Assembly: GCF_010731855.1 (NCBI RefSeq)
Contig: NZ_AP022620.1
Location: forward strand, 1,364,001 to 1,428,000
Source of the DNA: Mycolicibacterium anyangense
GTDB taxonomy: Bacteria > Actinomycetota > Actinomycetes > Mycobacteriales > Mycobacteriaceae
Direction: 5' to 3'
Length of the DNA: 64,000 nt
The notes beneath the pieces were generated by a model. That model searched no databases, was not told the DNA's origin, and was given only the letters and a program-made list of their open reading frames with translations. Positions 6,677-33,930 of this stretch are shown one piece after another. Position 1 is the stretch's first letter. The number at the start of each line of letters is the position of its first letter. Both the position numbers and the translations under genes were made by a program.

Positions 6677-6703
6677 CAAGCGCACCATGGTGGACACTAG
6701 GGC

Positions 6704-7255
6704 GTGGCTCTTTCTGCAACAGTGTTCAAAGTCGAACTTGGCGTCTCCGACGTCGATCACGGCTACTACGCCGATCACACATTGACCGTGGCGCGCCATC
6801 CCAGCGAGACCGATGAGCGAATGGTGGTGCGGCTATTGGCGTTTGGGTTGCGCGCCCACCGGCTCAGCGAAGTCGACGGCGACTTGGCGTTCGGTGCCGG
6901 CCTGTCCACCCCTGGCGTGCCGGACTTGCGGCTCGCGGACTACACGGATCGCATCGTGGAGTGGATCGTTGTTGGCCAGCCCGATGAACGAGTCTTGGGC
7001 AAAGCGGCCAGTCGGGCCGACCAGATTCTGCTGTTCCCATTCGCCGCCGGCGTGGCCACCTGGTGGAGCACCGTGGGTCCCAAAGTTGCGAAGCTGCCGA
7101 ATCTGTCCGTGCTGCAGATACCGCACACACCGGTGCAGCAACTCGCCCAGACCGTCGATCGACGGGTCTCGGCGCAGGTCATGGTGATGGAAGGTCAGGT
7201 GACGATGACCGTGGGCGGTATCGACGTCACCTTCACACCCGAACGCCTGATGTAG
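6704..7255 (+). CDS. YaeQ family protein
   Basis: 183 residues starting at GTG. The N-terminus (ALSATVFKVELGVSDVDHGYYADHTLTVARHPSETDERM) and the middle motif DYTDRIVEWIVVGQPDE are those of the YaeQ family, compact alpha/beta proteins with a restriction-endonuclease-like fold and unknown cellular role (E. coli YaeQ was once linked to RfaH compensation). The conserved residues of the PD-(D/E)XK-like core (HP.E...RM, then D..I..W..VG.P) are present and the length is standard. It lies directly downstream of the dead toxin gene and converges with the PPOX gene. Family is sure; function is not known. Confidence 0.9.
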   Translation: MALSATVFKVELGVSDVDHGYYADHTLTVARHPSETDERMVVRLLAFGLRAHRLSEVDGDLAFGAGLSTPGVPDLRLADYTDRIVEWIVVGQPDERVLGKAASRADQILLFPFAAGVATWWSTVGPKVAKLPNLSVLQIPHTPVQQLAQTVDRRVSAQVMVMEGQVTMTVGGIDVTFTPERLM

Positions 7256-7804: not shown

Positions 7805-8581
7805 ATGGACATCAACGGAGCAAGCGCAATCGTCACCGGTGGGGCCTCGGGTATCGGTGCTGCCACCTCACGTCAGTTGGCCGACCGAGGCGCCCGCGTC
7901 GTCGTCGCCGACCTGCAGGCCGACAAAGGCGAGGCTCTCGCCAAGGAGATCGGCGGCGTGTTCGTCAGCGTCGACGTCACCGACACCGCACAGATCACCG
8001 ACGCCGTCAACACGGCGACCGATCTCGGGCCGCTGCGAGTGCTGGTGAACTCAGCGGGCATCGGATGGGCCCAACGCACCATCGGCAAAGACGGCGAATT
8101 CGCCTCCGCCCACAACCTCGACGCGTACAAGAAGGTGCTCGCCATCAACCTGGTCGGTACGTTCGACTGCATCCGGTTGGCCGCCACCGCGATGAGCCGC
8201 AACGAGTACACCGACACCGGCGAGCGCGGCGCCATCGTCAACATGACCAGCGTCGCTGCCTTCGACGGCCAGATCGGCCAGGCGGCCTACTCCTCGTCCA
8301 AGGGCGGCGTCGTCGGCCTGACCCTGCCGGTCGCGCGTGACCTGTCGGCCGCGGGCATCCGCGTCAACACCGTGGCCCCCGGGCTGATCGACACGCCGAT
8401 CTACGGCGAGGGCGAGGCCTCCGAGGAGTTCAAGGCCAAGCTCGGCCAATCAGTGCTGTTCCCGCACCGTCTGGGCAAGCCCGAGGAGCTGGCGTCGATG
8501 GTGCTCGAGCTGCTCACCAACTCCTACATGAATGCCGAGGTGGTCCGCGTCGACGGCGGAATCCGGATGCCACCGAAGTAG
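7805..8581 (+). CDS. SDR family 3-hydroxyacyl-CoA dehydrogenase-like (HSD10-type)
   Basis: 258 residues. The cofactor loop is TGGASGIG (residues 11-18), NSAGIG replaces the NNAG motif, the catalytic serine lies in VNMTSVAAFDGQ, and YSSSKGG supplies Tyr and Lys. The layout, including the TIGKDGEFASAHNLD insertion and GLIDTPIYGEG, is that of type-2 3-hydroxyacyl-CoA dehydrogenases related to human HSD17B10 and mycobacterial Rv1144. The expected role is NAD-dependent oxidation of 3-hydroxyacyl-CoA in beta-oxidation of (branched) fatty acids or sterol side chains. It stands alone here, converging with the diguanylate cyclase gene. Confidence 0.85.
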   Translation: MDINGASAIVTGGASGIGAATSRQLADRGARVVVADLQADKGEALAKEIGGVFVSVDVTDTAQITDAVNTATDLGPLRVLVNSAGIGWAQRTIGKDGEFASAHNLDAYKKVLAINLVGTFDCIRLAATAMSRNEYTDTGERGAIVNMTSVAAFDGQIGQAAYSSSKGGVVGLTLPVARDLSAAGIRVNTVAPGLIDTPIYGEGEASEEFKAKLGQSVLFPHRLGKPEELASMVLELLTNSYMNAEVVRVDGGIRMPPK

Positions 8582-8607
8582 CAGCCGACGCGGGCACTTG
8601 CTCGTCG

Positions 8608-9687
8608 TCAGAGCTGTCCGTTGTTGCGGAACCGATTTCCGCCGGCGCGCTTGGCCTCATACATCGCGCCGTCGGCCGCCCGGATCAGGTCGTCGATCAG
8701 CTGCAGGTTGGGCGCAGCCGCGTCACCGTCCAGCGCTGCGCTGGCGGTACCGACACTCGCGGTGACCGGTGCCGGGATGTCGGCGATGGCCTGGCGCAAC
8801 TGCTCGGCGAGGATCTCCGGTGCGGGGTGGCGGGCGACATCGGCGATCAGGAACTCTTCTCCCCCGGCCCGGCCGATCACCGCAGAGCGACCGCACGTCT
8901 TCTCCAGTGCGGCGCTGACCCCGATCAGCGCGGCGTCGCCGGCGGCGTGACCATGGGTGTCGTTGAGCTGCTTGAAGTTATCGAGGTCGATCATCGTGAT
9001 CATCAGATGGGCACCGGTGCCCTGATGGCGCATCATCAGCTCGTAGACCGAGTAGTGGAAAGACCGGCGATTGTGAAGCCCCGTCAGCGGGTCACGGCCT
9101 GAGCTACGCAGGTCGACACGCAAGGTGCGGACCAGCGACTCGATGCCGAACGGCAGGCCTATATTCAGCGCCGCCACGATCGCGACCCCGGCGGCCGCCA
9201 AGAAAACATCACCCGTTGCGGAGACCACCCGAGCGGCCAGCACCGCGGCACAGATCGCGGCCACCCCAGCGTTGAGAACCGCTTCTCGCCAGGTGTGGAA
9301 GTAGGCGACGAAACCGCCGATCACCGAGAAGGTCGTGCAACCCATCAACCCCACATAGGGATTGGAGAACGACAGGCACGCAGCGGCGATCGTCGCGGTT
9401 GAAGTCAGCGAGAACACCATCGACTGGCGCCGAGTCGGCCAGTGCACGAGGAAGGGAAGCGCCGCGCCCGTCGCCAATCCGGCCGCCACGAAGCAGGTGA
9501 TGGTCCCCAGAGCGTTGCCGGGCCCCTCGGGGCTGAAGGTCGTCAACACCGTCGACCCCGCCAGCAGAACGGTGGCGATGAAGATCATCACCCGCCATAG
9601 CCGCTGCAGACCGCGGTCGTACAGATAAGCGCTGATCCAGTCGTATTGGTCGGCCTCGCGACCCGGCACACGCCCCCACCGAGCCAA
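8608..9687 (-). CDS. membrane-bound GGDEF diguanylate cyclase
   Basis: 359 residues from a TTG start (GTG six codons later is an alternative). The first ~200 residues hold about six hydrophobic segments (for example IFIATVLLAGSTVL, ITCFVAAGLATGAAL, FSLTSTATIAAACL, VLNAGVAAICAAVLA). A GGDEF domain follows: DPLTGLHNRRSF, then FKQLNDTHGHAAGDAAL, and the active-site loop GRAGGEEF. GGEEF is a catalytically competent variant, so synthesis of cyclic di-GMP from two GTP is expected. The position five residues before the loop reads RSAV, not RxxD, so the usual product-inhibition site seems absent. No EAL domain is attached. The N-terminal membrane part may sense an unknown signal. Confidence 0.88.
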   Translation of the reverse strand: MARWGRVPGREADQYDWISAYLYDRGLQRLWRVMIFIATVLLAGSTVLTTFSPEGPGNALGTITCFVAAGLATGAALPFLVHWPTRRQSMVFSLTSTATIAAACLSFSNPYVGLMGCTTFSVIGGFVAYFHTWREAVLNAGVAAICAAVLAARVVSATGDVFLAAAGVAIVAALNIGLPFGIESLVRTLRVDLRSSGRDPLTGLHNRRSFHYSVYELMMRHQGTGAHLMITMIDLDNFKQLNDTHGHAAGDAALIGVSAALEKTCGRSAVIGRAGGEEFLIADVARHPAPEILAEQLRQAIADIPAPVTASVGTASAALDGDAAAPNLQLIDDLIRAADGAMYEAKRAGGNRFRNNGQL

Positions 9688-9771
9688 TCGCCACTCCCAA
9701 ACTCTGCTCGGGAACTCCCCCTATAGATGCCAGCCCAATACTGCCAGCGCCCTGCCACGGGCGCGCGGGGC

Positions 9772-9801
9772 GGTGGGCCCAAGCCTCAGGCTGGGCCCAC
9801 C
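9772..9801 (-). terminator. hairpin after the encapsulin-desulfurase operon
   Basis: GGTGGGCCCAAGCC at 9772-9785 pairs with GGCTGGGCCCACC at 9789-9801 around a TCA loop with one bulged A. It begins 16 bp downstream of the desulfurase stop codon. There is no clear U-run, as is common for mycobacterial terminators. Confidence 0.5.
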
Positions 9802-9816
9802 ACGACCACCACAGCG

Positions 9817-11652
9817 TTAGCCGGTGTTGGATCCGCCTTCGGCGATGCGTCGGACGGCGTCGATGAAGACGTCGATTTCGTCGTAGGTGTTGTAGAAGGC
9901 GAACGACGGCCGGACGGTGGTTTCCACGCCCATGCGGCGCAGGATCGGTTGGGCGCAGTGATGTCCGGCGCGCACGGCGATGCCTTCGGCGTTGAGGGCT
10001 TTACCGACTTCGAGGGATTCGTGGCCGGCGAGCACGAAGGACAGCACGCTGGCCTTCTGTTCGGCGGTCCCGATCAGGCGCACCCCGGGGATGGCGGCCA
10101 GCCGCGGGGTGGCGTAGTCCAGCAGGGCGTGTTCGTAGGCGGCGATCCGGTCGATGCCGACCTTCTCGACGTAGCGGATCGCTTCGCCCAACCCGACGGC
10201 ATCAGCGATGTTTCCGGTGCCGGCCTCGAACTTGTTGGGCAGGCCCTGATACAGCGAGCGTTCGATGGTGACATCGGCGATCATGTTGCCCCCGCCCTGC
10301 CACGGCGGCGTCTCGGCCAGCACCTCTTCGGTGCCGTAGAGCACGCCGATCCCGGTGGGCCCGAAGATCTTGTGCCCGGAGAACACCAGGAAGTCGGCCC
10401 CGGTCTGGGAGACGTCGATCGGGATGTGCGGGATGGACTGGGCGCCGTCGATGAGCACGCGGGCGCCGTAGCGGTGGCCGAGTTCGACGATCGTGTCCAC
10501 CGGGGTGACGGTGCCCAGGGCGTTGGAGACCTGGGTGGCCGAGACCAGCTTGGTTCGCGGACCCAGCAGGTCCTCGAACTCACCGAGCAGCAGATTGCCG
10601 GCATCGTCGACCGGGGCGACCCGCAGGACCGCACCGGTCTGCTGGCAGATCATCTGCCAGGGAACGATATTGGCGTGATGTTCGAGGTGGGTGATCACGA
10701 TCTCATCACCAGCCTTGAGGTGCTTGGCGCCCCAGGCTTTGGCCACCAGATTGATGGCCTCGGTGGTGCCGCGCACGAAGATGATCTGCTCGGCCTTGGG
10801 TGCCCCGATGAAGCGGCGCACGGTGTCGCGGGCTTCTTCGTAGGCGTCGGTGGCCCGGGCGGCCAACTCGTGGGCGGCGCGGTGGATGTTGGAGTTCTCG
10901 TGGGCGTAGAAGTAGGCCAGCCGGTCGATGACCGCCTGCGGCTTCTGGGTGGTCGCGGCATTGTCGAACCAGATCAACGGTTTGCCGTTGACCGTCTCGG
11001 CCAGGATCGGAAAATCAGCCCGGATCGCGTGGACATCGAAGACCTCATGACGATCCGGCAACTGCGGCACCGGCTCGGCCAACACCGACACCGGCGAGGT
11101 GAAGTAGTAACTTCCCTCATCACCACCGGGTGTCGCGACCGCGGGGGCCGACAGAAAACCGAGATCCGGTATCCCCGCAACGCCGGTCGGCCAACTGGGT
11201 GCCGAACCACGCGGCGCCACCGGCGCGCTGGGCGCTGCGCCGGCGAGCACACCCGGCACCGTCGGCACGATGCCCTCGGGCACTGCGAACTCGTCGAAAT
11301 GCGGCGGGGTGCTTAGATCCGGTGCACTACCGCGCGGCGCCACCGGCACCGCACCCGGCGGAATCGGTTCGGGGCCAGGCGAACTCGGGGGCGGCAACGC
11401 CACACCCGGTGCCTCCAGGAACACCGCGGGCGGGCCGAACGGCTGCGCACCTGCCGCCCCACTCGCGTAGGAAGCCGCCGCAGTGGTGTCCGGCACCGAA
11501 CCCCGTGGTGCCGGTGGCACGGCCTGTGGGGGTGAATCATTTCCGGGCCGGAAACTGCCCGCCAGCAATTGCGTTGCCAGAGCGGCCAATTCAGCCTCGC
11601 TGATCGGGAGGTCGCCTTCGGCGTCTACCGACCGATACTCACTTGTACTCAT
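9817..11652 (-). CDS. family 2A encapsulin cargo: SufS-type cysteine desulfurase with long disordered N-terminus
   Basis: 611 residues. Residues about 205-611 are a group II (SufS/CsdA-like) cysteine desulfurase: FDNAATTQKP at 229-238, THLEHHAN at 321-328, the PLP-binding lysine in FSGHKIFGP (K428), and the catalytic cysteine in RAGHHCAQP (C566). It removes sulfur from cysteine as an enzyme-bound persulfide. The first ~200 residues are Pro/Ala/Gly-rich and probably disordered, with a short helix-prone start (ISEAELAALATQLLAG, 17-32) and three APRGS motifs at 48-52, 105-109 and 146-150. Such an extension is the known mark of cargo for SrpI/MMP-I-type encapsulins and directs packing into the shell. 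Its ATG lies inside the 3' end of the shell gene (14-bp overlap), implying coupled translation. Confidence 0.93.
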   Translation of the reverse strand: MSTSEYRSVDAEGDLPISEAELAALATQLLAGSFRPGNDSPPQAVPPAPRGSVPDTTAAASYASGAAGAQPFGPPAVFLEAPGVALPPPSSPGPEPIPPGAVPVAPRGSAPDLSTPPHFDEFAVPEGIVPTVPGVLAGAAPSAPVAPRGSAPSWPTGVAGIPDLGFLSAPAVATPGGDEGSYYFTSPVSVLAEPVPQLPDRHEVFDVHAIRADFPILAETVNGKPLIWFDNAATTQKPQAVIDRLAYFYAHENSNIHRAAHELAARATDAYEEARDTVRRFIGAPKAEQIIFVRGTTEAINLVAKAWGAKHLKAGDEIVITHLEHHANIVPWQMICQQTGAVLRVAPVDDAGNLLLGEFEDLLGPRTKLVSATQVSNALGTVTPVDTIVELGHRYGARVLIDGAQSIPHIPIDVSQTGADFLVFSGHKIFGPTGIGVLYGTEEVLAETPPWQGGGNMIADVTIERSLYQGLPNKFEAGTGNIADAVGLGEAIRYVEKVGIDRIAAYEHALLDYATPRLAAIPGVRLIGTAEQKASVLSFVLAGHESLEVGKALNAEGIAVRAGHHCAQPILRRMGVETTVRPSFAFYNTYDEIDVFIDAVRRIAEGGSNTG

Positions 11653-12565
11653 GGTACTGATCCACCGCAACGCCATCGAGCACCGCCAACGCATCATCGG
11701 TCAGCACCGCCAACGACGAATACAACGACACCAGATACGACGCGATCCCCGACCGATCAATCCCGGTGAACCGCACCGACAACCCCGGCGCCTGCTCACC
11801 GACCAGACCCGGCTGGAACAACCCGACCACACCCTGGCGCTCCTCACCGGTACGCACCAGGATGAACTTCGTCTTACCCTTCTCCACCGGCACCTTGTCA
11901 CTCGGGATGATCGGGATACCGCGCCAGGTGATGAACTGCGCACCAAAGAGATTGACCACCACCGGCGGCACCCCACGCCAGGTCGCCTCCCGACCGAACG
12001 CCGCCACCCCCAACGGATGAGTCAAGAAGAACGCCGGCGTCTTCCACACCTTGGTCAACAAACCATCCAGATCATCCGGCGTCGGCGCGCCCTTGAGCGT
12101 CTTGATCGTCTGCTCCGGAGTGACCTGCGACAGCAACCCATACTCGGGGTTGTTGATCAGCTCGGACTCCTGGCGTTCCTTGATCGTCTCGATCGTCAAC
12201 CGCAACTGCTGGGTGATCTGGTCATGCGGGCTGGAATACAGATCCGAGACCCGGGTATGCACGTCGAGCAGCGTGGAAATCGTGCGCAGCGTGATCTCAC
12301 GCGGGCTGGTCTGATAGTCGACATACGTCTGCGGCAGCGGATCCTCGATATTCTCCCCGCCGACCTCGGCGTGGATCGCCACCCGATCCGGGTTCACCAC
12401 CCGGTTCACCCGGTAGATACCAGCCTCCACCGGCACCCAGCTCAACAGATGCAACAAAAACCGCGGAGTAATCGTCTCCAACTGCGGGACCGTCTTGGTC
12501 GCATTCGCCAACTGCCGCGCAGCAAGCGCGCCAAGTGCCTGAGATTCATTCTGTGCCGACGTCAT
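11639..12565 (-). CDS. family 2A encapsulin nanocompartment shell protein (MMP-I/SrpI-like)
   Basis: 308 residues starting at the ATG at 12563-12565, preceded by a good GAGGAAG ribosome binding site. The sequence (QLANATKTVPQLETITPRFL, then LPWVP-like LSWVPVEAGIYRVNRV, KVWKTPAFFLTHPLGVAAFGREAT, and the C-terminal ILVRTGEERQGVVGLFQPGL) is that of M. leprae major membrane protein I and cyanobacterial SrpI. These are HK97-fold proteins that self-assemble into an icosahedral protein shell around a cysteine desulfurase. They lack the cyclic-nucleotide-binding insert of family 2B. The next gene is precisely that desulfurase, overlapping by 14 bp. The proposed role is a sulfur-storage or redox-stress compartment; the chemistry inside is inferred from family knowledge. 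Confidence 0.95.
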   Translation of the reverse strand: MTSAQNESQALGALAARQLANATKTVPQLETITPRFLLHLLSWVPVEAGIYRVNRVVNPDRVAIHAEVGGENIEDPLPQTYVDYQTSPREITLRTISTLLDVHTRVSDLYSSPHDQITQQLRLTIETIKERQESELINNPEYGLLSQVTPEQTIKTLKGAPTPDDLDGLLTKVWKTPAFFLTHPLGVAAFGREATWRGVPPVVVNLFGAQFITWRGIPIIPSDKVPVEKGKTKFILVRTGEERQGVVGLFQPGLVGEQAPGLSVRFTGIDRSGIASYLVSLYSSLAVLTDDALAVLDGVAVDQYHEYK

Positions 12566-12720
12566 GATGATCTTCCTCTGCTCTGGTCGGGTGCTGGACC
12601 GGTCCGCCACCGAGATACTTCCGCCGGCAACTGATCGTCGAGGCAATCCTATGAGTCAATTGTTGAAATATGCTTCGAAAGATTCGCCAATTTCGGGTGC
12701 ACAGTGAGAAAATCATCGCT
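12566..12720. promoter_or_regulatory. divergent control region between encapsulin operon and Lrp gene
   Basis: 155 bp separate the two divergent starts. The half near the Lrp gene is AT-richer (TTGTTGAAATATGCTTCGAAAG from about 12661), typical of Lrp/AsnC sites. The 11-mer TCGAAAGATTC occurs at 12676-12686 and again at 12735-12745, just inside the Lrp coding region, so the regulator may bind both and control itself and the operon. Confidence 0.45.
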
Positions 12721-13176
12721 ATGGACCGAATAGATCGAAAGATTCTTTCACACTTGCAGGATGACGGCCGGATGAGTGTCACCGATCTAGCATCGGAAGT
12801 GGGCCTGAGCCTGTCGTCGTGTCATCGCCGGGTGAAAGACCTGGAGCAGTCCGGCGCCATCGAGAGCTACCGGGCGGTGATCTCGCCGGAGGCACTCGGT
12901 CTCAACTTCGAAGCACTGGTATTCGTCACGATGGTGCGCACCGACCAGCAGACCATCGCAGCGTTCGAGCGAGATGTCGCAGCCAACCCACATATCGTCA
13001 CCGCCCAAAGACTCTTCGGTGAGCCCGACTTCACCTTGCGTGTGCTCGCTCGTGACCTCGTGGAATATCAGGACATCTACGACAACGAACTCGGGGCGCT
13101 ACCGGGTGTCCAGCGGTTGACGTCGACACTGGTGATGAAGCGGATCGGTGCGGATCGGACCGTGCCGATCTCCTGA
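12721..13176 (+). CDS. Lrp/AsnC family transcriptional regulator
   Basis: 151 residues from ATG (DRIDRKILSHLQDDGRMSV). Residues 1-60 form the winged helix-turn-helix with LASEVGLSLSSCHRRVKDLE as the recognition region; residues 65-145 are the RAM ligand-binding domain with LGLNFEALVFVTM and ITAQRLFGEPDFTLRVL-type motif (VTAQRLFGEPDFTLRV). Members form octamer-like assemblies and respond to amino acids. A longer frame begins at 12670, but the ATG at 12721 gives the standard family N-terminus. Being divergent from the encapsulin operon, it is a good candidate for its regulator, perhaps sensing cysteine or another sulfur amino acid (inference). Confidence 0.9.
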   Translation: MDRIDRKILSHLQDDGRMSVTDLASEVGLSLSSCHRRVKDLEQSGAIESYRAVISPEALGLNFEALVFVTMVRTDQQTIAAFERDVAANPHIVTAQRLFGEPDFTLRVLARDLVEYQDIYDNELGALPGVQRLTSTLVMKRIGADRTVPIS

Positions 13177-13197
13177 TCATTGCCGCCAGCAGGCCAC

Positions 13198-13803
13198 TCA
13201 GGACACGTCGGTGGCCAGCCGCGCGTGAACGTGCATGTCGTGCCAGCCATCGGCGTGCAGTGCTGAGGACCGCGCAACACCCTCGGCAATGAAGCCCGCT
13301 TTGACGGCCACCCGGCAGGACGCATGGTTGGCCGTGGAGTGGTCCAGCCAAATGCGATGGAAGCCAGCCTCTTCGAAAGCCCACCGGCACAACGCCCGCG
13401 CTGCCTGTGTGCATATGCCTCTCCCCCTCGCGGCCGGCACCATCCAGTACGCCAGCCCTGCCGACCCGTCGTGAAGATCCACGGAGTTCAACGACATTCG
13501 GCCCAATACAGCATCGGACTGGCGCTCTGCTACCGCCCAATTGAGCTCGGACTCAGCAGCCCAGCCGCGCTGACGATCGGTGATCCACTCAACGGCCTCC
13601 TCCAACGAATCCGCACGCCGCACATGCCAACGTTGGATATCGGGATCGGTAAACGCCGCCAGGACGGCGGCCGCGTCTCCGAGCCGCCACGGGCGCAACA
13701 CCACAGCAGGGCGCACCACTATCTCAGGCTGACCAGATCCAGCGAACCATCCCGCAGCCATGGCGGGAGCGATCAAACGCGGCACGTTCACATCATGGCT
13801 CAC
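13198..13803 (-). CDS. GNAT family N-acetyltransferase (RimJ/RimL-like)
   Basis: 201 residues from GTG; an internal ATG at 13761 is an alternative start. It has the GNAT pattern: VVLRPWRLGDAAAVLAAFTDPDIQRWH, then AGLAYWMVPAARGRGICTQAARALCRWAFEEAG, which contains the acetyl-CoA-binding R/Q-G-x-G signature as ARGRGI, and the C-terminal NHASCRVAVKAGFIAEG. This arrangement is the RimJ/RimL subgroup, which acetylates N-terminal amines of proteins or small amines. Substrate cannot be deduced. It converges with the Lrp gene, 21 bp apart. Confidence 0.88.
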   Translation of the reverse strand: MSHDVNVPRLIAPAMAAGWFAGSGQPEIVVRPAVVLRPWRLGDAAAVLAAFTDPDIQRWHVRRADSLEEAVEWITDRQRGWAAESELNWAVAERQSDAVLGRMSLNSVDLHDGSAGLAYWMVPAARGRGICTQAARALCRWAFEEAGFHRIWLDHSTANHASCRVAVKAGFIAEGVARSSALHADGWHDMHVHARLATDVS

Positions 13804-13885
13804 CGCACGGCAAGGCTCAGCGGGTTTTTCGGCGCAGGTCCCATCGGCCGACCGACCGTTCGGACCGGCGCCGTAGGCTCACCAC

Positions 13886-14098
13886 GTGCACCACGTGACG
13901 CTGCTCGCCAGCCCCGCCTCGACGGCAGCTCTCACGGTAGGGCTGGCGACCTATGCAGCGTTGATCTTCGCCGGCATCGCAGTGGCGATCTACGACGTCC
14001 GCAGGCACCGGCGCGGCCGAGCGATCGCCGGCGCAGTGCTGGTTGGAGTCCTGACCGTCATCGGTCTGGTTATCGCGATCCTCAGCAGTGTGGTGTGA
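13886..14098 (+). CDS. small membrane protein
   Basis: 70 residues from a GTG start with two predicted membrane helices (AALTVGLATYAALIFAGIAVAI and AIAGAVLVGVLTVIGLVIAIL) joined by a basic loop (YDVRRHRRGR), a hairpin topology with the loop in the cytoplasm. No family was recognised. It sits divergently from the acetyltransferase gene and ahead of the LLM gene. The coding pattern and topology support a real gene; function unknown. Confidence 0.55.
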   Translation: MHHVTLLASPASTAALTVGLATYAALIFAGIAVAIYDVRRHRRGRAIAGAVLVGVLTVIGLVIAILSSVV

Positions 14099-14212
14099 CC
14101 GCCCGCTGAACTGCGAAACGCCCGGCACGGGCGGTTCGGCCCGATGCGGGAATATTCCCCGCCGCCGCTGAACTTGGTCCAGAAGTCGCCCGTCCCCCGC
14201 TCAGGAGCATCC

Positions 14213-15022
14213 ATGACCCGTCCCGTCCGCGTCGCCGTTCAGATCCAGCCCGGCGGAACGCCCGACTACCGCTCCTGGCGCAACGCCGTCCTGGCCGCCG
14301 ACGACCTCGGCGTCGACGTCATCTTTGGCTACGACCACTTTCACCGCCCGGCGATGGAAGCAATCGTCGACGGCAAGCCCGTCATGTTCGATGACCAACC
14401 CGATGTGTCCAACTTTGAGGGGTGGACGGCTCTCGCGTCCTGGGGCGAGATCACGTCGCACGCCGAGATCGGCCTCCTGGTCACCGGAGTCGGCTACCGC
14501 AACCCCGACCTGCTCGCCGACATGGCACGCACCGTCGACCACATCAGCGGCGGCCGACTCATACTCGGCCTCGGCGCAGGGTGGTACGAAAAGGATTACA
14601 CCACATACGGTTACGACTTCGGCACGTTCAGCTCCCGCTTCGACCTCTTCGACGAGAGCCTGATCCGTATCGAGAATCGCCTCGCTGCGCTGATTCCCCC
14701 TCCTGTTCGCAAGCTGCCGATCCTCATCGGCGGCACCGGTCCGAAGCGCTCGTTGCCCGCGGTCGCCCGCCATGCCGACATCTGGCACGCGTTCCAAGAT
14801 CTCGACGAGTTCCGCAGATCCAGTGAACGCGTCGACGAGCTGGCGGCGACGTTCGGCCGCAACGGAGCCGATATCGAACGCTCCACGCTGTGGAAGGACG
14901 CGTCGAGCGCCGATACCTTCCGTGAAGCCGGCGTGACGCTATTCCAGACCGAACTCACCTCCGACGACGGCTACGACCTCGGATCCCTCAAGCAGGTACT
15001 CGCGTGGCGGGACAACGGCTGA
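14213..15022 (+). CDS. LLM class F420-dependent oxidoreductase
   Basis: 269 residues with the bacterial luciferase-like monooxygenase barrel. The order is VRVAVQIQPGGTPDYRSWRNAV, VIFGYDHFHRP, TSHAEIGLLVTGVGYRNPDLLADMARTVDHISGGRLILGLGAGWYEKDYTTYG, and LPILIGGTGPKRSLPAVARHADIWH. The HISGGRLILGLGAGW motif is typical of the mycobacterial F420-dependent group (Fgd/Mer-like), so the cofactor is probably F420 rather than FMN. The ATG at 14213 follows a CAGGAG ribosome binding site; an upstream in-frame extension to 14144 has no family match. Substrate unknown. Confidence 0.88.
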   Translation: MTRPVRVAVQIQPGGTPDYRSWRNAVLAADDLGVDVIFGYDHFHRPAMEAIVDGKPVMFDDQPDVSNFEGWTALASWGEITSHAEIGLLVTGVGYRNPDLLADMARTVDHISGGRLILGLGAGWYEKDYTTYGYDFGTFSSRFDLFDESLIRIENRLAALIPPPVRKLPILIGGTGPKRSLPAVARHADIWHAFQDLDEFRRSSERVDELAATFGRNGADIERSTLWKDASSADTFREAGVTLFQTELTSDDGYDLGSLKQVLAWRDNG

Positions 15023-15023
15023 T

Positions 15024-15683
15024 TCATCGGGTAGTCACTCCCGCGGCATCGGGGTTGAGAAGGTAAAGCCCTGCGACCGTTCGATCGTCGCGGAAGGTGA
15101 TCCGAGCGACGAACTCACCGGCCTCAAAACGCAAGGGGGTGTTGGTGACGGTGAAGGCTCCGGCGCGCACAACATCTGTGTCGCCGTGGCCTTCGTAGGC
15201 ACCCACCACCCCCGCGAGCTGAGCCCAGGTCTGATCCAATTCCTGCTCGGAGAGCCCAGCGAGCATCGTGTCATCGAAGTGAGCCCTGACCTCCGCCCAG
15301 CGAGAACGTGTCAGGTCGTCGATGATCGCCCTGGCCAGATCTGCGGCGCCCGGTAGTGGGGTGGTGCTCATGGCTTCTCCTGTTCGGGGATGAATGGGCT
15401 TGCCGTACCGCTGAAATGCGGCCTGGCGAGATACGCCGAGAATGTCGCCGATCTCCTGCCACGTCCGGCCAGCTCCTCGCGCATGCTGCACCGTCTCGGC
15501 CAGCAGCACGTCAGCGTGATCCCGGATCTCCTGCGCCGCCCGCACCAACGCGAGCGGATCGAGCTCGCCGTCCCCGCCGGGTTCAGCGAGGATCTGACGC
15601 ACCCGCAGGTGAAGGTGCTGCACAGTCACCACGAACGAACCGACCACAGCTCGAGATTGCGCCGGGCTACCCGCGGCTGTCAA
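15024..15683 (-). CDS. HTH-containing DUF3887 protein
   Basis: 219 residues in two parts. Residues about 35-100 hold a helix-turn-helix resembling those of sigma factors or plasmid regulators: GRTWQEIGDILGVSRQAAFQRYGKP. Residues 110-215 match DUF3887, a small NTF2-like domain (AIIDDLTRSRWAEVRAHFDDTMLAGLSEQELDQTW, then VARITFRDDRTVAGLYLLNP). DUF3887 domains bind unknown small ligands, so the protein could be a one-component regulator. It converges with the LLM gene, two bases apart. The combination is recurrent in mycobacteria as far as recalled; its role is unknown. Confidence 0.75.
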   Translation of the reverse strand: MTAAGSPAQSRAVVGSFVVTVQHLHLRVRQILAEPGGDGELDPLALVRAAQEIRDHADVLLAETVQHARGAGRTWQEIGDILGVSRQAAFQRYGKPIHPRTGEAMSTTPLPGAADLARAIIDDLTRSRWAEVRAHFDDTMLAGLSEQELDQTWAQLAGVVGAYEGHGDTDVVRAGAFTVTNTPLRFEAGEFVARITFRDDRTVAGLYLLNPDAAGVTTR

Positions 15684-15706
15684 GGTTTGATTGACAGCCG
15701 CCCCCG

Positions 15707-16165
15707 CTAGGAACCTAGCAAGGACCGCAATGTCAGGTACGCCGCGTGGCCACGGGTGAACGTCGCACTGTCACCACCGTTGTCGGGATGATGCTTGGCG
15801 GCATAGCTGCGCCAGGCCCGTCGCACCTGCTCGATGGAAAGCGGCTCCTGCAAGCCGAGAATCAGCAGCGGATCAGTTGGGGGCGCGGGAAGGCCGCGCG
15901 CCCTGCTCGTCTTAGCCTTCGCAGCGGAAGACGTTGGGCCGGTAGCCTTTTTGGCAGCCGCTTTTTTGGCAGCCTTCTTCGGCGGTGCCTTCTTGGCGGG
16001 TGCCTTCTTGGCAGGCATCTTCTTGGCCGCCTTGGCCGGGCCCTTCTTGGCCGGGCCCTTCTTGGCCGGGGCTTTCTTGGCAGCCGCTTTCTTGGCCGGA
16101 GCCTTCTTAGCCGGCTTCTTGGCTGGGCGTAATGGACCCCCGCCAGACCCCGTCACTTCCTTCAC
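15707..16165 (-). CDS. KAP-rich histone-like protein with C-terminal J-domain
   Basis: 152 residues from GTG. Residues 14-85 are almost only Lys, Ala and Pro in repeated [10 protein letters not shown] units, like the tails of histone H1, mycobacterial HupB and other actinobacterial nucleoid proteins. Residues 99-150 look like a compact J-domain: [34 protein letters not shown], with the diagnostic HPD at 126-128. J-domains stimulate DnaK ATPase. A basic DNA- or RNA-binding tail on a J-domain suggests recruitment of DnaK to nucleic acid or ribosomes (inference). It is oriented with the DUF3887 gene downstream, 23 bp away, possibly one transcript. Confidence 0.8.
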
Positions 16166-23945: not shown

Positions 23946-25409
23946 TTATGACTGCTGCTGCTGTCCCAGGGTGACCTGGGCGGTGTGCGACGAACCCGAA
24001 GGGTCCTGGTAGGTCAGCGCCACGTTGTCACCGGGAGCCTTGGAACTGATCGCGGCAACCAGGGCTTCCGGACCGTCGATCACCTGGTCGTCGACCTTGG
24101 TGATCACGGAGCCCTTTTCCAGCCCGGCCGCAGCGGCCGCGCTGCCCTGGACCACGCCGGCGATTGCCGCGCCATGGCCGCTGTCGTCGGCGCTGAGCTT
24201 CACCCCCAGCGAGGCCCGCTGGACCGTGCCCGTGGACACCAGCTCGTCGGCGATGCGCTTGGCCTGATCCACCGGGATGGCGAATCCCAGACCGATCGAA
24301 CCCGCCTGTGCGCCAGGCGAATCCTGGCCGCCGCCCATGGAGGCAATCGCGGAGTTGATGCCGATCAGGTTGCCGCTCATGTCGACCAGGGCACCACCGG
24401 AATTACCGGGGTTGATGGCGGCATCGGTCTGGATGGCACTCATCACCGAATGCTGACCGGTCTGCTCGTCACCGGTAGCCACCGGCCGGTTCAGGGCACT
24501 GATGATGCCCGTCGTCACCGTGCCCTGCAGCCCCAGCGGCGAGCCGATCGCCACCACGTTCTGGCCAACCTTGAGGTCTTTGGAGGAACCGATGCTGATG
24601 GGCGTCAAGTTGTCCAGGCCCTGCACCCGCACCACCGCGATGTCATCGGCCGGATCGGTGCCCACCACGGAGAACGGCGCCGTCCGCCCGTCGGACAGAG
24701 TGACCGTCGCCTTCAGGCCGGCGTTGGACGGGCCGTCGGACGGGTCCTGGGAATCCGGACCGTACGGGCTGCCCTGGGGCATCTGTCCACCTGGGAACAA
24801 GCCCCTCAGCAGGCCCGGGATCTGGCGCTCGGCAGCACCCTGAGCGCCGCTGTTGCCCGCGGCGGCAGCCACCACATGGTTGTTCGTCAGGATCAGCCCA
24901 TCGGAGCTCAGGATGATGCCCGAGCCTTCCTCACGCGACTGGCCACTGTCGATCTGGATCTTCACCACGCTGGGCAGGACCTTGGCTGAGACCTCCTCGA
25001 CCGAACCCGGGGCGGTCACCGCGGTCTGCTGGCCTTGGGCCGGGGCGGATTTGCCGACCGCAACCGGGGCCACCGGCGCAGGAGGCGTCGGGTTTCCGTT
25101 GTGGTCCACCAATGCGACCGCGGTGGCGGCGCCGACGGCCATGGCCACGACGGCGGTACCGGTCACCAGGACTCCAGCGCGCGGTCCGCGCCTTTGCCCC
25201 TTCGACGGCTTGGCGGCGTTTCGGGTGCTGTCAGCCATGCCGGGCCGCTGACCGTAGTGCTGGTGATAGCCAGGCGAGCCGAACGAGGGCCCGTAGGGCT
25301 GATAGTACCCAGCCGCATTCCACGGCTGCGAGTTGTGTTGTTCAACAGAGTCTTTGGGTTGGCCATAGTGATCGCTACCCGGTGACGGGTATGTATAGCG
25401 GTCGCTCAT
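23946..25409 (-). CDS. HtrA-type serine protease with PDZ domain (PepD-like)
   Basis: 487 residues. A cytoplasmic Tyr/Gly/Gln-rich region (residues 1-75) precedes one membrane helix (VLVTGTAVVAMAVGAATAVAL), so the protease faces outward. The chymotrypsin-fold domain has its triad in ILTNNHVV, DPADDIAVV and NPGNSGGAL. A PDZ domain follows (ASLGVKLSADDSGHGAAIAGV ... GDNVALTYQDPSG). The layout matches M. tuberculosis PepD (Rv0983) and its HtrA relatives, which degrade or refold envelope proteins under stress. Unlike the mprA-mprB-pepD arrangement, no two-component genes are adjacent here, so this may be a paralogue. Confidence 0.92.
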   Translation of the reverse strand: MSDRYTYPSPGSDHYGQPKDSVEQHNSQPWNAAGYYQPYGPSFGSPGYHQHYGQRPGMADSTRNAAKPSKGQRRGPRAGVLVTGTAVVAMAVGAATAVALVDHNGNPTPPAPVAPVAVGKSAPAQGQQTAVTAPGSVEEVSAKVLPSVVKIQIDSGQSREEGSGIILSSDGLILTNNHVVAAAAGNSGAQGAAERQIPGLLRGLFPGGQMPQGSPYGPDSQDPSDGPSNAGLKATVTLSDGRTAPFSVVGTDPADDIAVVRVQGLDNLTPISIGSSKDLKVGQNVVAIGSPLGLQGTVTTGIISALNRPVATGDEQTGQHSVMSAIQTDAAINPGNSGGALVDMSGNLIGINSAIASMGGGQDSPGAQAGSIGLGFAIPVDQAKRIADELVSTGTVQRASLGVKLSADDSGHGAAIAGVVQGSAAAAAGLEKGSVITKVDDQVIDGPEALVAAISSKAPGDNVALTYQDPSGSSHTAQVTLGQQQQS

Positions 25410-25690
25410 CGCGTTCGTTTCTGCTTCCTCGAGACGTGGACAGTTGCGCCTTGGCGCTTGTTGTCACAACAATGACCGTGCCGACTGAGTCGTTGCTGAG
25501 AATGAGTTCGGTTCCGTCGAAGACTTTTTCGGCCTGCGCACCGAACACAGCCGCCACCCAAGGCTCAGACTGTGGCCTCACACAGCCTGTCCACCAGCAG
25601 AATTCGGGTGCCGGACCCGGCTGCGGAGCTACCGAGACGGCAGCACAACGCCCGGGTCACAGTATGGTCTCGGCCAACCCGGATCGGGGT

Positions 25691-26449
25691 TCAGCTGGCT
25701 GCGCCGACTTCGCCGGCGGTCTGCACCACAGGTGCCGCCACGACGGGGGCTCCCAGCTTCGCTGCGACGAAGTCAGCTGCCTGGTCAGCCATTCCGTTGG
25801 CCTTGTAGGAGCTGTGCGCCGCGCGATCCAGCCCACCCGGGTAGCACACCGGGTCGCCGGCGGCGCACAGCTGGATGGTCTTGCCCGCATAGAGGTCACC
25901 GATCGCGATGGGCGGGGCGCTGCGGTCAGCCAATCCCAGGAACCAGCTGTCCGGGGTACCGAACAGAGCGACGGCCGCCACATGGGAAGCCACCGAAGCC
26001 GGCATGGGTCCAGAGATGCTGGCCGGCAGGGTGTACCCCGCGGGGACCGCACTAGCGGTGGTGTAGCCGGCGACAGCGGCGCCCTGGGAGTAGCCGCCCA
26101 GCACGATCTTGGTCGACGGACACTGCGCACTGATCGCCTGAATCCGGTTCGCCGCATCAGCAACACCATCGGCGGCCTGTCCGAAGTCCAGTGACGCCGG
26201 GTAGTTCACACCGTAGGCCTCCACCGTCTTGCCGGGCAGCCGAGCGCTCAGTGCGTCGACGAACGCCTGACCGGTGGCCCCGACGCCGGGGGCCTCAAAG
26301 GTTCCCCGAGCGAACACCACCTCGACCGAGGGGCACGATTCGCCGGCGGCGCTGGCCGTCGCTGCAGGTCCGGCGATGACTGCAGCCGCCGCGACGGTAG
26401 CGAACAGCGCCGATTGGGTGATCTTGCGAGCCAGTGGCGATGCAGTCAT
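25691..26449 (-). CDS. cutinase family esterase (secreted)
   Basis: 252 residues with a signal peptide (QSALFATVAAAAVIAGPAATASAAG). The mature enzyme is a cutinase/CULP alpha/beta hydrolase: CPSVEVVFARGTFEAPGVG, nucleophile in GGYSQGAAV (Ser about 121), and the acid/base pair in CAAGDPVCYPGGLDRAAHSSYKANGM. Cysteine pairs typical of cutinases are present. Mycobacterial members hydrolyse polyesters, short esters or phospholipids outside the cell. It is followed leftward by the pepD-like gene after 281 bp without a gene. Confidence 0.92.
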   Translation of the reverse strand: MTASPLARKITQSALFATVAAAAVIAGPAATASAAGESCPSVEVVFARGTFEAPGVGATGQAFVDALSARLPGKTVEAYGVNYPASLDFGQAADGVADAANRIQAISAQCPSTKIVLGGYSQGAAVAGYTTASAVPAGYTLPASISGPMPASVASHVAAVALFGTPDSWFLGLADRSAPPIAIGDLYAGKTIQLCAAGDPVCYPGGLDRAAHSSYKANGMADQAADFVAAKLGAPVVAAPVVQTAGEVGAAS

Positions 26450-26547
26450 GAGATGAACCCCGTCCTCGTCTTCGTTGGCGACTGCCCCCTACAAGTCGCC
26501 AGGCGGGACGGTAGATTCCGCGAGTCGGGGGTGATCTATCCCACCGA

Positions 26548-28005
26548 TCAGGCGGGAATCCACTGCACCGAGTCGACGAGCATCTTGGCCGGGAACCGGG
26601 TCGAACCGTTCGGCGCCCCGGCCCAGGGTCCACCCACGGCCAAGTTCAGGATCGCGAACATCGGCCGGTTGTACACCCACGTCGAACCCGGGGCCAGCGA
26701 CGCCGGGGTCAACGTTCCCAACGTGGTGCCGTCGACGCCGAAGGTGATCTCGTCCACCAGATGCCGGACCCAGAAGCTGTGGTAGCCCGTAGAAAGGTCG
26801 GGCAGGTTCGACACGATCTGGGCCTGCTGCGTGGCCGTGGTGCCGGCAATCGGTCCGTGCAGCGTCGAGTACACCGTGGTGGTCGTGCTCGGCAGTTCGA
26901 GCACGTCGATCTCACCCGACTGCGGCCAGGCGGTGGTGTCCTCATCGGCGCCCTTGAGCCAGAAGGCGGGCCACAACCCTTGCCCCTTGGGCACTTTGAT
27001 GCTGGCGATGATCGTTCCGTAACCCATGCTGAGTTTGTTCTTGGACTCGATCCAGCCCGAGGAGTAGGTCCGGCCGCTCTTGGTGGCCGAGATGACGAGG
27101 TGTCCCTGCCCGTCGAGTGCGACATTGTTGGTGGAGTAGTTCTCGAGGCCGGGATCCCATCCGGTTCCGGTCTTCACCGTCCACAGGGCGCTGTTGGGCG
27201 CCGATCCGGCGCTCCCGGCGAAATCGTCACCCACAGCGCCGTTGATGGTGGAGATGCTGTCGATGTAGAGATTGCGCTGCGAACTCGGCGAGGGGTCGTA
27301 ATTGTTCGAATAGGTGACGCTGAGCGTATGGGTTCCGGCCGCAATCGCGCCGGCAAAGGTGTAGTTCGACCATGACGTCGCGCCGACCATGATCGTGGTG
27401 ACTGCCACGCCGTCGATGGCCAGCGACAGGTTGGGCGGTCCCGAACTCAGCGAAGCCTTGGCGCGGATCACCAATCCGTTAGAGGCTGCCAAAGCGACTG
27501 TCGCCGAGGCGGTTCCGTTATCCGTCAGAGCCAGTGCCGAGCCTCCCGACGCGGTCGAATCGGAGATCACCGTAGCCGAGGCAGTCGGCGAAACGGTCAT
27601 GGTCTCAGCCTCGACCGTGGTCACTGTCGTCGAGGTGGTGGCCTGGGTGGCGGCGCCACCTCGAGGTGCCGCCGTCGCGGTGGCTTTCTGGCGACCCGTA
27701 TTGGGCGCCACTGCGGCCCCGGCGGCGGCAGCCGCGGTGGGCGATGCCACGGCGGCAACGGCGGAGGCCGCGCCCGTCGCCTTCTGTGCAGGCTGCGATA
27801 CCTCGCGCCGGACCGCTGCCGCCTTGGTCCGTGCAGACCGCGCCGGGCCGGCCGTGCTGGCAGCGTGTGACGGTCCCGCCGAAGACCCGGGTGAATCCCC
27901 GGTATCCGCACCAGCCACTGCGCAGCCCAATCCTGTCGCGATTGCCGATCCGATGCCCAGCGCGATGGCCAGCGCCCCGATTCGACCCACAACAATCGAA
28001 CTCAT
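26548..28005 (-). CDS. secreted glycoside hydrolase family 16 protein with carbohydrate-binding-like module
   Basis: 485 residues. Signal or anchor at the start (IGALAIALGIGSAIATGLGCAVAGADTGD), then an Ala/Pro/Thr-rich linker to about residue 130. Residues about 140-253 look like a beta-sandwich carbohydrate-binding module of the xylan-binding type (SLAIDGVAVTTIMVGATSWSNYTFAG, NLYIDSIS). Residues 258-485 are GH16: GWIESKNKLSMGYGTIIASIKVP, LWPAFWLKG, and the catalytic motif GEIDVLE (residues 364-370, ExDxxE). GH16 enzymes cut beta-1,3/1,4-glucans, galactans or similar. Algal, plant or fungal polysaccharide is the likely target. Confidence 0.92.
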   Translation of the reverse strand: MSSIVVGRIGALAIALGIGSAIATGLGCAVAGADTGDSPGSSAGPSHAASTAGPARSARTKAAAVRREVSQPAQKATGAASAVAAVASPTAAAAAGAAVAPNTGRQKATATAAPRGGAATQATTSTTVTTVEAETMTVSPTASATVISDSTASGGSALALTDNGTASATVALAASNGLVIRAKASLSSGPPNLSLAIDGVAVTTIMVGATSWSNYTFAGAIAAGTHTLSVTYSNNYDPSPSSQRNLYIDSISTINGAVGDDFAGSAGSAPNSALWTVKTGTGWDPGLENYSTNNVALDGQGHLVISATKSGRTYSSGWIESKNKLSMGYGTIIASIKVPKGQGLWPAFWLKGADEDTTAWPQSGEIDVLELPSTTTTVYSTLHGPIAGTTATQQAQIVSNLPDLSTGYHSFWVRHLVDEITFGVDGTTLGTLTPASLAPGSTWVYNRPMFAILNLAVGGPWAGAPNGSTRFPAKMLVDSVQWIPA

Positions 28006-28122
28006 CGTGTACTCCCCCCGTTCGGCAGACCGCCGCGAGGGGCGGAATCAGCCGCCTGATCACTGTAAACCGCGACGATGTCGGGGCCGTGAAGTTTCGG
28101 CGAAACCGCCGGGTTCAGCCGA

Positions 28123-28614
28123 TCAGTCCGGGGGAAGCGCAAGTGCCAGCCGGGTGACGAGCTCGAGTTGCCCGAGATCGGACAGCACCCGCTCAGCCAG
28201 CAGACCCTGGCTGCGGGTCAGCGACAGCCAGAGATGGTCGGATTCAGTGGCCAGCGCGCCGGCTTCCTGGGCCAGCAACGAGGCGCTGACCAGCAACAGG
28301 CGCGCATGCGGGCTGAACGGCAGGTGCACGAAGCGCGGCGAAGCCCGTTGACGGACTCCGGAGACCTGCTCGATGCGCTCGCGAATCACCGGCAGGCTCG
28401 CCCCCTGGTCAAGCAACGCGCGGGTGATCCGGTGCGAGGTGTCAGCCACCAAGCCCAGGAGCAGATGCGCTGAGCCGACGAAGTTGCTGGCGTACGAATA
28501 GGCTTCGTCATGCGCGGTCCGCACCGCGGCTCGTGCCGACTCCCCCAGCGTGGCGAGAGCGCGCGCGAGCATCTCGGCGCTGACCGGGGTATCAGAGTGT
28601 GGCGCACTGACCAT
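28123..28614 (-). CDS. stand-alone Clp N-terminal repeat protein (ClpC2-like)
   Basis: 163 residues consisting of two Clp_N-type helical repeats: LARALATLGESARAAVRTAHDEAYSYASNFVGSAHLLLGLV, then HARLLLVSASLLAQEAGALATESDHLWLSLTRS. In ClpC the same fold binds adaptors and substrates, but no AAA+ module is present here. Mycobacteria have another such protein, ClpC2, which is longer and binds ClpC-targeting toxins or phospho-arginine. The present protein could be a decoy or adaptor (inference). It lies upstream of the GH16 gene, same strand, and downstream of a TetR gene. Confidence 0.8.
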   Translation of the reverse strand: MVSAPHSDTPVSAEMLARALATLGESARAAVRTAHDEAYSYASNFVGSAHLLLGLVADTSHRITRALLDQGASLPVIRERIEQVSGVRQRASPRFVHLPFSPHARLLLVSASLLAQEAGALATESDHLWLSLTRSQGLLAERVLSDLGQLELVTRLALALPPD

Positions 28615-28672
28615 AGTTTGCTGATTCTACAATACGTAGATATTGCAGGGTTCCTAATCAAGGAATTTGACG

Positions 28673-29296
28673 CTACTCCGGAGGTCGTTTGATTTGCCCC
28701 CGCTCAAGCAGGTTGTTGACCGACTCCTCCCATCGCCGCAGCTGAGTCAGTGTGGTCAGCGGCTCGGGCAGATGACGGTCGAGATGGCGACGCATGATGA
28801 CCGTGCCCATCGTCAGAATGATGGGGTTGAGGGCGGCCCAGACCAGATCGAGGTTGTCGGCGGTGGCGCCGATCGCGTCCAGTTGGCGCCAATGACCCAT
28901 CACGATAGCCGCCGTCGCGTCGAAGAATGCCCTGCCGGCGGGAGCGTCCTCGACAAGCAGCCTAGCCAGGTAGTCGACGGCCGAAAGATGGTCGGAGAGT
29001 AGGTAGATCACGCGCCTTCCAAGTTCGAGGACCGCCTCGGTCGGATCATCCGGGAGCGGTTGTGACATCCCGGCACCGATCACCGTCAGCGCGTACGTGT
29101 CCACCGCCTCGATGAGACTGTCCTTCGAGCCGAAGTGGTGTTGCACCAGTCCGACGGATACGCCGGCCGTCTGCGCGACCATCTGCAGCGTCGAACCCGA
29201 GGCGCCATGTTTGGCGAACACATCCAGGGCAGCCTCGACGATGCGTTCCTGCTTCGACAATCCGAAGCTGTCCTCCGCGACCACGACTCTGTCCAT
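28673..29296 (-). CDS. TetR family transcriptional regulator
   Basis: 207 residues. The N-terminal helix-turn-helix is classical: QERIVEAALDVFAKHGASGSTLQMVAQTAGVSVGLVQHHFGSKDSLIEAVDTYA. The C-terminal ~150 residues are the variable ligand-binding helices with AAIVMGHWRQLDAIGATADNLDLVWAAL. Its target is likely itself or the Clp N-domain gene 59 bp downstream on the same strand, or the beta-helix gene upstream; none of these is proven. Confidence 0.92.
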   Translation of the reverse strand: MDRVVVAEDSFGLSKQERIVEAALDVFAKHGASGSTLQMVAQTAGVSVGLVQHHFGSKDSLIEAVDTYALTVIGAGMSQPLPDDPTEAVLELGRRVIYLLSDHLSAVDYLARLLVEDAPAGRAFFDATAAIVMGHWRQLDAIGATADNLDLVWAALNPIILTMGTVIMRRHLDRHLPEPLTTLTQLRRWEESVNNLLERGQIKRPPE

Positions 29297-29390
29297 TCCT
29301 CTGCTGCACTATCCCCACCCATGAAGATAAGTGCTGAAGCGGCCGCATCACGCCGCAACGCCGGGACAGTGAGGAAACGGCCCGCCTGGG

Positions 29391-31001: not shown

Positions 31002-31399
31002 TGCGCTTCCCCCTGATGTGCAGTTATTTGAGGCATCAAACGCTAACGCGCGAAACATAACTCAGGCCCGAGACCGACGCAGCGTGAATTGGTGAAAAAA
31101 ATCTGAACCCGCGATGTCCGCCCGAGGCGCCTGCCGGGCGCTCGAAGCCGTTGCTCATCAAGTGATTTCACGAAACAGTCACACTGCGGGTTGTGCGGGC
31201 GAAAGCCGATATTGACGCGTGCGTCGGCGCTCTTATTTGCCGGCTCCACGCAATTCCGGAAAACACGCAGAACAGGCACCTGTCGACGCCCGCCGAATCT
31301 ATTCGCTGGAATTGCACATGTGTGCACGAATGCCCCGGCTTCGCCGAGCCGCGCAGCGGGTTAGCCCGGCGAGCCACGTCCGGCAGAGGTGGCTGTAGC
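31002..31399. other. 398-bp divergent intergenic region
   Basis: No gene was recognised between the divergent beta-helix and FKBP genes. It includes an AT-rich patch (GGTGAAAAAAATCTG, about 31091-31105) and must contain both promoters. A rightward in-frame extension of the FKBP gene (from 31193) reads without family match and lacks a signal peptide, so it is not taken as coding. Confidence 0.5.
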
Positions 31400-32062: not shown

Positions 32063-32075
32063 CCGGCCCGCTCCC

Positions 32076-32112
32076 TGTAGCAGACTGCTACACTGCGTTA
32101 CAGACTGCTACA
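32076..32112 (+). promoter_or_regulatory. two tandem operators in front of the ParD-like/zeta toxin operon
   Basis: 32076-32092 is the perfect 17-bp dyad TGTAGCAG-A-CTGCTACA. 32096-32112 is a second copy, CGTTACAG-A-CTGCTACA, with three mismatches in its left half. Start-to-start distance is 20 bp, about two helical turns, so two dimers would sit on one DNA face. They lie just upstream of a GGAGGG ribosome binding site and the antitoxin ATG. This is the classic arrangement for antitoxin autoregulation. Confidence 0.8.
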
Positions 32113-32123
32113 CGGAGGGTGTC

Positions 32124-32513: not shown

Positions 32514-32529
32514 TCGCCACCATGCCTCG

Positions 32530-33105: not shown

Positions 33106-33134
33106 TCGAAAAGCGCTGGGCGCGAACAGGATTG

Positions 33135-33797: not shown

Positions 33798-33930
33798 TCC
33801 GGCGGTCCTCTCTGTTGCGCTCGCCGGGACTGCGGTCGGGGCACGAAGTCAGCGAACTCTACCGGCATCGTCGCACACATCGGCCGTGCTGTTACGCCTG
33901 GCGGATCCCGACCGTGTGCTGAGATGGTGC

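Follow-up and report, generated by a model that had tools for sequence, protein, structure and literature searches.

A second, narrowly distributed family 2A encapsulin operon divergent to an Lrp/AsnC regulator gene in Mycolicibacterium anyangense

The 64,000-nucleotide stretch of the Mycolicibacterium anyangense chromosome analysed here (the window; contig NZ_AP022620.1, positions 1,364,001 to 1,428,000) carries a family 2A encapsulin operon, consisting of a shell gene and the gene of its cargo cysteine desulfurase, which lies divergent to a gene for an Lrp/AsnC family regulator. We consider it probable, at roughly 0.6, that this is a second and narrowly distributed copy of the operon, placed behind an Lrp/AsnC protein of a LysE-exporter-type clade, that the three genes have been kept as a unit, that its sequence has been homogenised with that of the other, native copy, and that the operon is switched by the Lrp protein. 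In what follows, G000 is the genome of the window, G207 is that of M. sphagni, and G264, G318, G307 and the remaining G numbers are other genomes of the genus. The coordinates of the features are collected in Table 1.

Table 1. Features of the encapsulin module in the window and of the native locus in the same genome.
Feature	Position	Strand	Basis or remark
Terminator-like hairpin 3' of the desulfurase gene	9772..9801	-	folding against shuffles
Cargo cysteine desulfurase, 611 aa	9817..11652	-	NF041166 f2_encap_cargo1
Family 2A encapsulin shell (MMP-I/SrpI type), 308 aa	11639..12565	-	NCBIfam NF041162 encap_f2a
Divergent control region, 155 bp	12566..12720		common to G000, G264 and G207
TAGGAT, -10-like hexamer for the shell gene	12646..12651	-	pattern only; TAGGAT in G264, TAGGGT in G207
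Weak operator-like match to the LysE-Lrp intergenic motif	12663..12687	+	motif score 4.0
Lrp/AsnC family regulator, 151 aa	12721..13176	+	PF13404/PF01037
Segment duplicated in G000	G000:C1:3748920-3751677 (window 9815..12572)	-	coding region only
TQXA/thioester-domain (TED) protein, native locus of G000	L059:8362-9681	-	divergent from shell
Poly-cysteine short ORF ending RCCCC, native locus of G000	L059:9682-9926	TED strand	upstream of the TQXA gene

The shell protein scored 494.1 bits against the NCBIfam model encap_f2a (cut-off 380) and 394.4 bits against encap_f2b, just under the cut-off of 400, which together with the absence of a cNMP domain places it in family 2A and not in 2B. Its solved relatives include 9ksl, 8wol and 8t6r, entries named major membrane protein I, and 6x8m (SrpI). 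The desulfurase scored 850.1 bits against f2_encap_cargo1 (cut-off 800), and the solved desulfurase 8kg1 matches its residues 193-607. It carries SGHK (Lys428) and HHCAQP (Cys566), which we take to be the two catalytic motifs expected of a desulfurase, and its SufS-like domain begins at about residue 205. The roughly 200 residues N-terminal to this domain are of low complexity (57% Pro, Ala, Ser or Gly) and, judging from this composition and from the published description of the family, are probably disordered. The two open reading frames (ORFs) overlap by 14 bp (11639-11652), and the hairpin that follows the desulfurase gene is unusually stable, with a minimum free energy of -40.2 kcal/mol for positions 9760-9819 (z -4.5) that none of 200 shuffles reached. 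ORFs, family models and folding thus bear out the layout that the original prediction, made from the sequence, had described, namely the shell and desulfurase pair with its overlap, the long N-terminus, the hairpin and the divergent Lrp gene across 155 bp. With both scores above their cut-offs, the pair resembles the known family 2A encapsulins with desulfurase cargo, SrpI/CyD of Synechococcus elongatus and mycobacterial MMP-I, and the gene pair and the N-terminal extension are as described for the family in the accessible part of PMC8049743; it differs from the known systems in being a second genomic copy and in standing beside an Lrp gene.

The second copy in G000 is 98.2% identical to the window operon, with 49 mismatches and no gaps over the duplicated segment, and the homology does not extend beyond the coding region at either end. 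The native shell (G000:C1:3748927-3749850) differs from that of the window at 2 residues and the native desulfurase at 9, 8 of which lie within the N-terminal 200. There is no Lrp gene at the native copy, where the divergent neighbour encodes a TQXA/thioester-domain protein and the surroundings further comprise aminotransferase, WhiB and GCS2 genes and, by eye, an APC-type transporter gene; this gene order is common to G318 and largely to G307. Such similarity, with the two G000 desulfurases pairing up in all five cargo trees (three initial and two later ones), would also be expected from a recent segmental duplication in G000 alone that left the operon beside the Lrp gene by chance. We disfavour this explanation and regard it as very improbable, given that the Lrp-shell junction, its intergenic DNA conserved, recurs in G264 and G207, both of which also have a second locus with the TED gene and the 5' end of a shell gene, and that the homology in G000 ends at the coding region, as gene conversion predicts.

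The pairing with Lrp is rare. An orthologue of the Lrp protein (E <= 1e-30) was found in 9 of 396 genomes of the genus, and it adjoins the shell gene only in G000, G264 and G207 (3 of 396), so that we reject the idea of a conserved partnership between Lrp and the encapsulins of mycobacteria. The shell itself was counted in 133 of the 396 genomes, with G264 and G207 falling outside this number because both assemblies break inside the shell gene at both copies, leaving the first 107 bases visible at each. One of the G264 breaks is a 100-N gap and the other runs into unrelated sequence, and we read the breaks in the two genomes as the mark of a repeat that assembly failed to span. The latter break (L128:8322), at base 107 of the native G264 shell and with no N gap, is either an assembly error or a rearrangement. 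The Lrp proteins of G264 and G207 are both 93% identical to that of the window, and the Lrp-shell intergenic region can be aligned in the three species with a mean column identity of 82%. When 43 shell loci were searched with a hidden Markov model of Lrp (E <= 1e-5), only L060 and L061 matched, both Lrp-linked. In an order-wide sample, among whose matches G264 and G207 do not appear, the Lrp orthologue occurred in 15 of 298 genomes and the shell in 14 of 298, with G000 the sole genome in both lists. Because the junction and the intergenic region are common to three species, the arrangement is, as far as sequence can tell, real and narrowly distributed. Conservation of the three-gene neighbourhood across mycobacteria had been put forward as a check on the original prediction, and the neighbourhood is largely not conserved; as for the encapsulin having its own Lrp regulator, the junction is real in three species, whereas the native copy of G000 has the TQXA gene instead. 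Our literature search, which left most subscription papers and supplements outside its reach, found no report of an encapsulin paired with Lrp, AsnC or a thioester domain, and neither Lrp nor AsnC is mentioned in the main text of the two principal papers on family 2 encapsulins. Elsewhere in the genus, G195 has an in-frame fusion (L067:8942-9427) between the effector-binding part of an Lrp, with 88% identity to residues 78-150 of the window protein, and what by eye is an AraC-like helix-turn-helix segment, and L068:9184-9725 (G264:C1:3285184-3285725) is possibly a degenerate second Lrp-shell remnant, with 73% similarity over the shell 5' end and intergenic part and 80% over the C-terminal part of Lrp.

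The window Lrp protein has an AsnC-type helix-turn-helix (PF13404, 64.7 bits) and an AsnC ligand-binding domain (PF01037, 64.0 bits). Among the best 80 of its 96 relatives, which share about 60% identity with it, Streptomyces accounts for the majority and other actinobacteria for a few; a further 46 plasmid records contain relatives, the best at about 61%. A LysE-family gene lies divergent to Lrp within 600 bp in 74 of the 92 loci examined, its identity having been confirmed with PF01810 for the one locus tested; LysE was not counted in L062, L063/L240, L065 and L183, where it aligns only from residue 20. The 92 loci include two duplicate retrievals (L063/L240 and L061/L163), and the Lrp gene is encapsulin-linked at L060 and L061/L163. 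As the 64-kb window contains no match to Streptomyces LysE, the encapsulin operon seems to occupy the position of the exporter relative to Lrp. The window shares with the divergent Lrp/AsnC-LysE pairs of actinobacteria the Lrp clade, the divergent layout and the offset of a sequence motif, and differs from them in having the shell-desulfurase operon in place of the exporter and a gap of 155 bp against a median of 82 bp.

This motif was built from 44 LysE-Lrp intergenic regions (77 reduced by an 85% identity filter), and the match in the control region ranks third among 127,952 window positions. It starts exactly 58 bp before the Lrp ATG, an offset found in 74 of the full set of 77 LysE loci and also in G264 and G207, and shuffled regions scored as high at this offset in 1, 1 and 0 of 3000 cases for the three species. 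The match is suggestive of an Lrp operator. Lrp bound there would sit upstream of its own gene and cover the probable -35 region of the shell gene, and in this way it may make the production of shell and desulfurase depend on an amino acid, the leading candidates being cysteine or another sulfur amino acid.

To follow the history of the two copies we turn to the desulfurase trees, of which the later ones contain 17 of the 21 rows of the initial trees. In the tree of the catalytic domain the sequences group by genome, the two copies of G207 (95.2% identical) stand together with a support of 100/99, and the approximately unbiased (AU) test rejects a grouping of G207_C36 with G264_Lrp (p-AU 9e-41). 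In the tree of the N-terminus G207_C36 groups with G264_Lrp (support 100/98), and it is the union of the two G207 copies that is rejected (p-AU 0.002). Such a conflict fits gene conversion between copies, which would have taken in the entire operon in the window genome, but in G207 the catalytic part without the N-terminus; homology limited to the coding region is likewise expected from conversion between copies with unrelated flanks. Conversion would homogenise the copies so that both make one interchangeable shell, and the control regions would stay distinct.

Several points weigh against this account of a kept and Lrp-switched unit. The candidate operator scores 4.0 against a training median of 34.5, shuffles score as high at some position of the region in 111, 213 and 109 of 3000 cases for the three species, and since Lrp proteins can autoregulate, the site may serve Lrp alone. 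The groups submitted to the AU test were picked after sight of the initial trees. The N-terminus of the window desulfurase stands apart from the other Lrp-linked ones (p-AU 1.4e-8), which conversion would explain. G207_C36 was assigned as Lrp-linked by its likeness to the Lrp-linked copy of G264, which makes the N-terminus clade partly circular, although the tree conflict within G207 is free of this circularity. The comparison of copies in G207 and G264 covers the desulfurases, the shell being visible there for its first 107 bases at each copy. The outer neighbours of the module differ, being GGDEF and GNAT genes in the window, NlpC/P60 and acyl-CoA dehydrogenase genes in G264 and an unnamed ORF in G207; however, stretches resembling window positions 6682-7242, 13868-15022 and 23947-34261 occur within 10 kb of the G264 module, and since this module thus lies in the same wider region as that of the window, one old insertion with later shuffling fits as well as movement of the module. 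A 4.07-kb stretch made up of the G264 module and a SfnB/DszC-like gene, with GACTGC at both edges, is missing at the corresponding site of G318, and this empty site may equally be a deletion, gain and loss being indistinguishable. The SfnB/DszC-like acyl-CoA dehydrogenase itself (L060:9866-11239) directly follows Lrp in G264 and scored 244.2 bits against the SfnB model, under the cut-off of 430.9; it is possibly a sulfur-acquisition enzyme.

It is conceivable, though we doubt it, that Lrp controls only itself and perhaps distant genes, with its position an insertion accident and the shell promoter constitutive or unrelated. The small number of genomes with the pairing and the native copy without Lrp are in keeping with this, as is the weakness of the motif, which is equally compatible with autoregulation. 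Against this stands the conservation of the 155-bp region in three species in which the module has different immediate neighbours, a pattern that suggests joint retention of its genes.

The conserved divergent partner of the shell in the genus is, on the genome comparison, the TQXA protein and not Lrp, and the partnership appears nearly obligate. The TQXA protein (TIGR03934, 56.3 bits; PF08341, 34.2 bits) was found in 138 of the 396 genomes. These are all of the 133 in which a shell was counted, together with G207, G264, G094, G113 and G128. The TQXA gene directly neighbours the shell gene, in divergent orientation, at 134 of 135 shell places, a count that excludes the window's own place and two fragment rows (G292:C191 and G100:C11:117714); at the exception, G416, both genes are at contig ends. 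G325 and G357 have two shell places each, all beside TQXA genes, and the two loci of G325, which show no difference in the cargo trees, may be duplicates created in assembly. In an alignment of 39 TQXA sequences, 12 of them printed, the T-Q-A of TQAAIW is invariant, and so is a Ser in AYSLD, at the position where the thioester Cys would presumably be expected. By eye, the protein of the native G000 locus has no obvious signal peptide.

Between the shell and TQXA genes, a short ORF containing a run of three or more Cys codons is present on the TQXA strand in 37 of 39 native loci (those fetched out of the 135 places, including the two identical places of G325) and on the shell strand in 2 of 39; random window stretches contain one in 14 of 1000 cases at 340 nt and in 15 of 1000 at 490 nt. 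Poly-cysteine leaderless ORFs are cysteine-responsive attenuators in mycobacteria (Canestrari et al. 2020, as cited in excerpts of PMC9031893 and PMC9094748). The leaders of the native TED genes resemble these attenuators in their consecutive Cys codons, but no such ORF is found in the Lrp-shell regions of the three species. With such an ORF in 37 of 39 native loci, control by cysteine has support from sequence at the native locus, and not at the window copy or for Lrp. In M. abscessus, a ribosome-protected upstream ORF precedes the TQXA gene MAB_0219, according to the available text of PMC4974804, and MAB_0218c, adjacent by its numbering, is listed as 'Major membrane protein' in the accessible part of PMC7481331; the two are likely to be the shell/TQXA pair described here. 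The native copy is instead paired with a TQXA gene carrying a poly-cysteine leader, so that the genome seems to operate one and the same compartment from two loci with different wiring.

Could the window Lrp be a cysteine sensor like YbaO (DecR/CyuR) of Escherichia coli, an Lrp-family protein, and switch on the compartment so that surplus cysteine is broken down? Imported cysteine activates YbaO (PMC7373191, in the part available), a desulfurase in place of an exporter would, from the LysE context, preserve the logic of an amino acid in excess, and the native locus has its poly-cysteine leader. The likeness to YbaO is one of analogy, however, the nearest solved relatives of the window Lrp being other AsnC/Lrp proteins, and the S. 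elongatus compartment rises on sulfate starvation, the opposite of a response to excess (as given in excerpts of PMC8049743), so that we hold this explanation to be unlikely. A broader idea, which we advance very tentatively and with rather low confidence, is that mycobacteria use the encapsulin desulfurase for cysteine homeostasis and have wired it twice, at the native locus through a cytosolic partner that is thioester-domain-like without the usual Cys and stands under poly-cysteine attenuation, and in the Lrp module through the captured regulator of an exporter, with conversion keeping one shared shell under different control.

The remaining observations concern the cargo N-terminus and the surroundings of the module. 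Look-alikes of the conserved cargo motifs LARLANEFFS and AASPYYFLDG were found by eye in the window desulfurase, as LAALATQLLAGSF and GSYYFTSP; YYF is present in 29 of 40 desulfurases and the pattern for the first motif in 12 of 40, some N-termini being cut by alignment ends. The same region has three spaced PRG (APRGS-type) repeats, with three copies in 29 of 40 mycobacterial desulfurases and fewer in the others (again with some N-termini cut), and these are a possible shell-binding motif. No Rfam match at gathering score was found in window positions 8000-16000. There is no marked composition break at the module, where the GC content goes down to 0.59-0.60 around 12000-13500, and the short repeats at its two ends, of which the best is 10 bp long (E 0.08), are probably fortuitous. 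Serine O-acetyltransferase and rhodanese are named as the most enriched accessory genes of family 2A in the accessible part of PMC8346489; neither is among the seven window proteins scanned.

Family 2A knock-outs of S. elongatus showed no growth defect, as far as the available text of PMC8049743 goes, and the two-locus system bears on what triggers these compartments and what purpose they serve. Two copies that encode nearly the same proteins under different control regions, one with an amino-acid-type regulator and the other with a poly-cysteine leader gene, offer testable handles on the timing of the compartment in mycobacteria, and the TQXA protein, as a near-obligate partner, becomes a new candidate for a component. 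What is said here of the regulator is lineage-specific; of wider reach is an encapsulin system that appears to be wired twice and whose nearly obligate partner gene stands behind a poly-cysteine leader.

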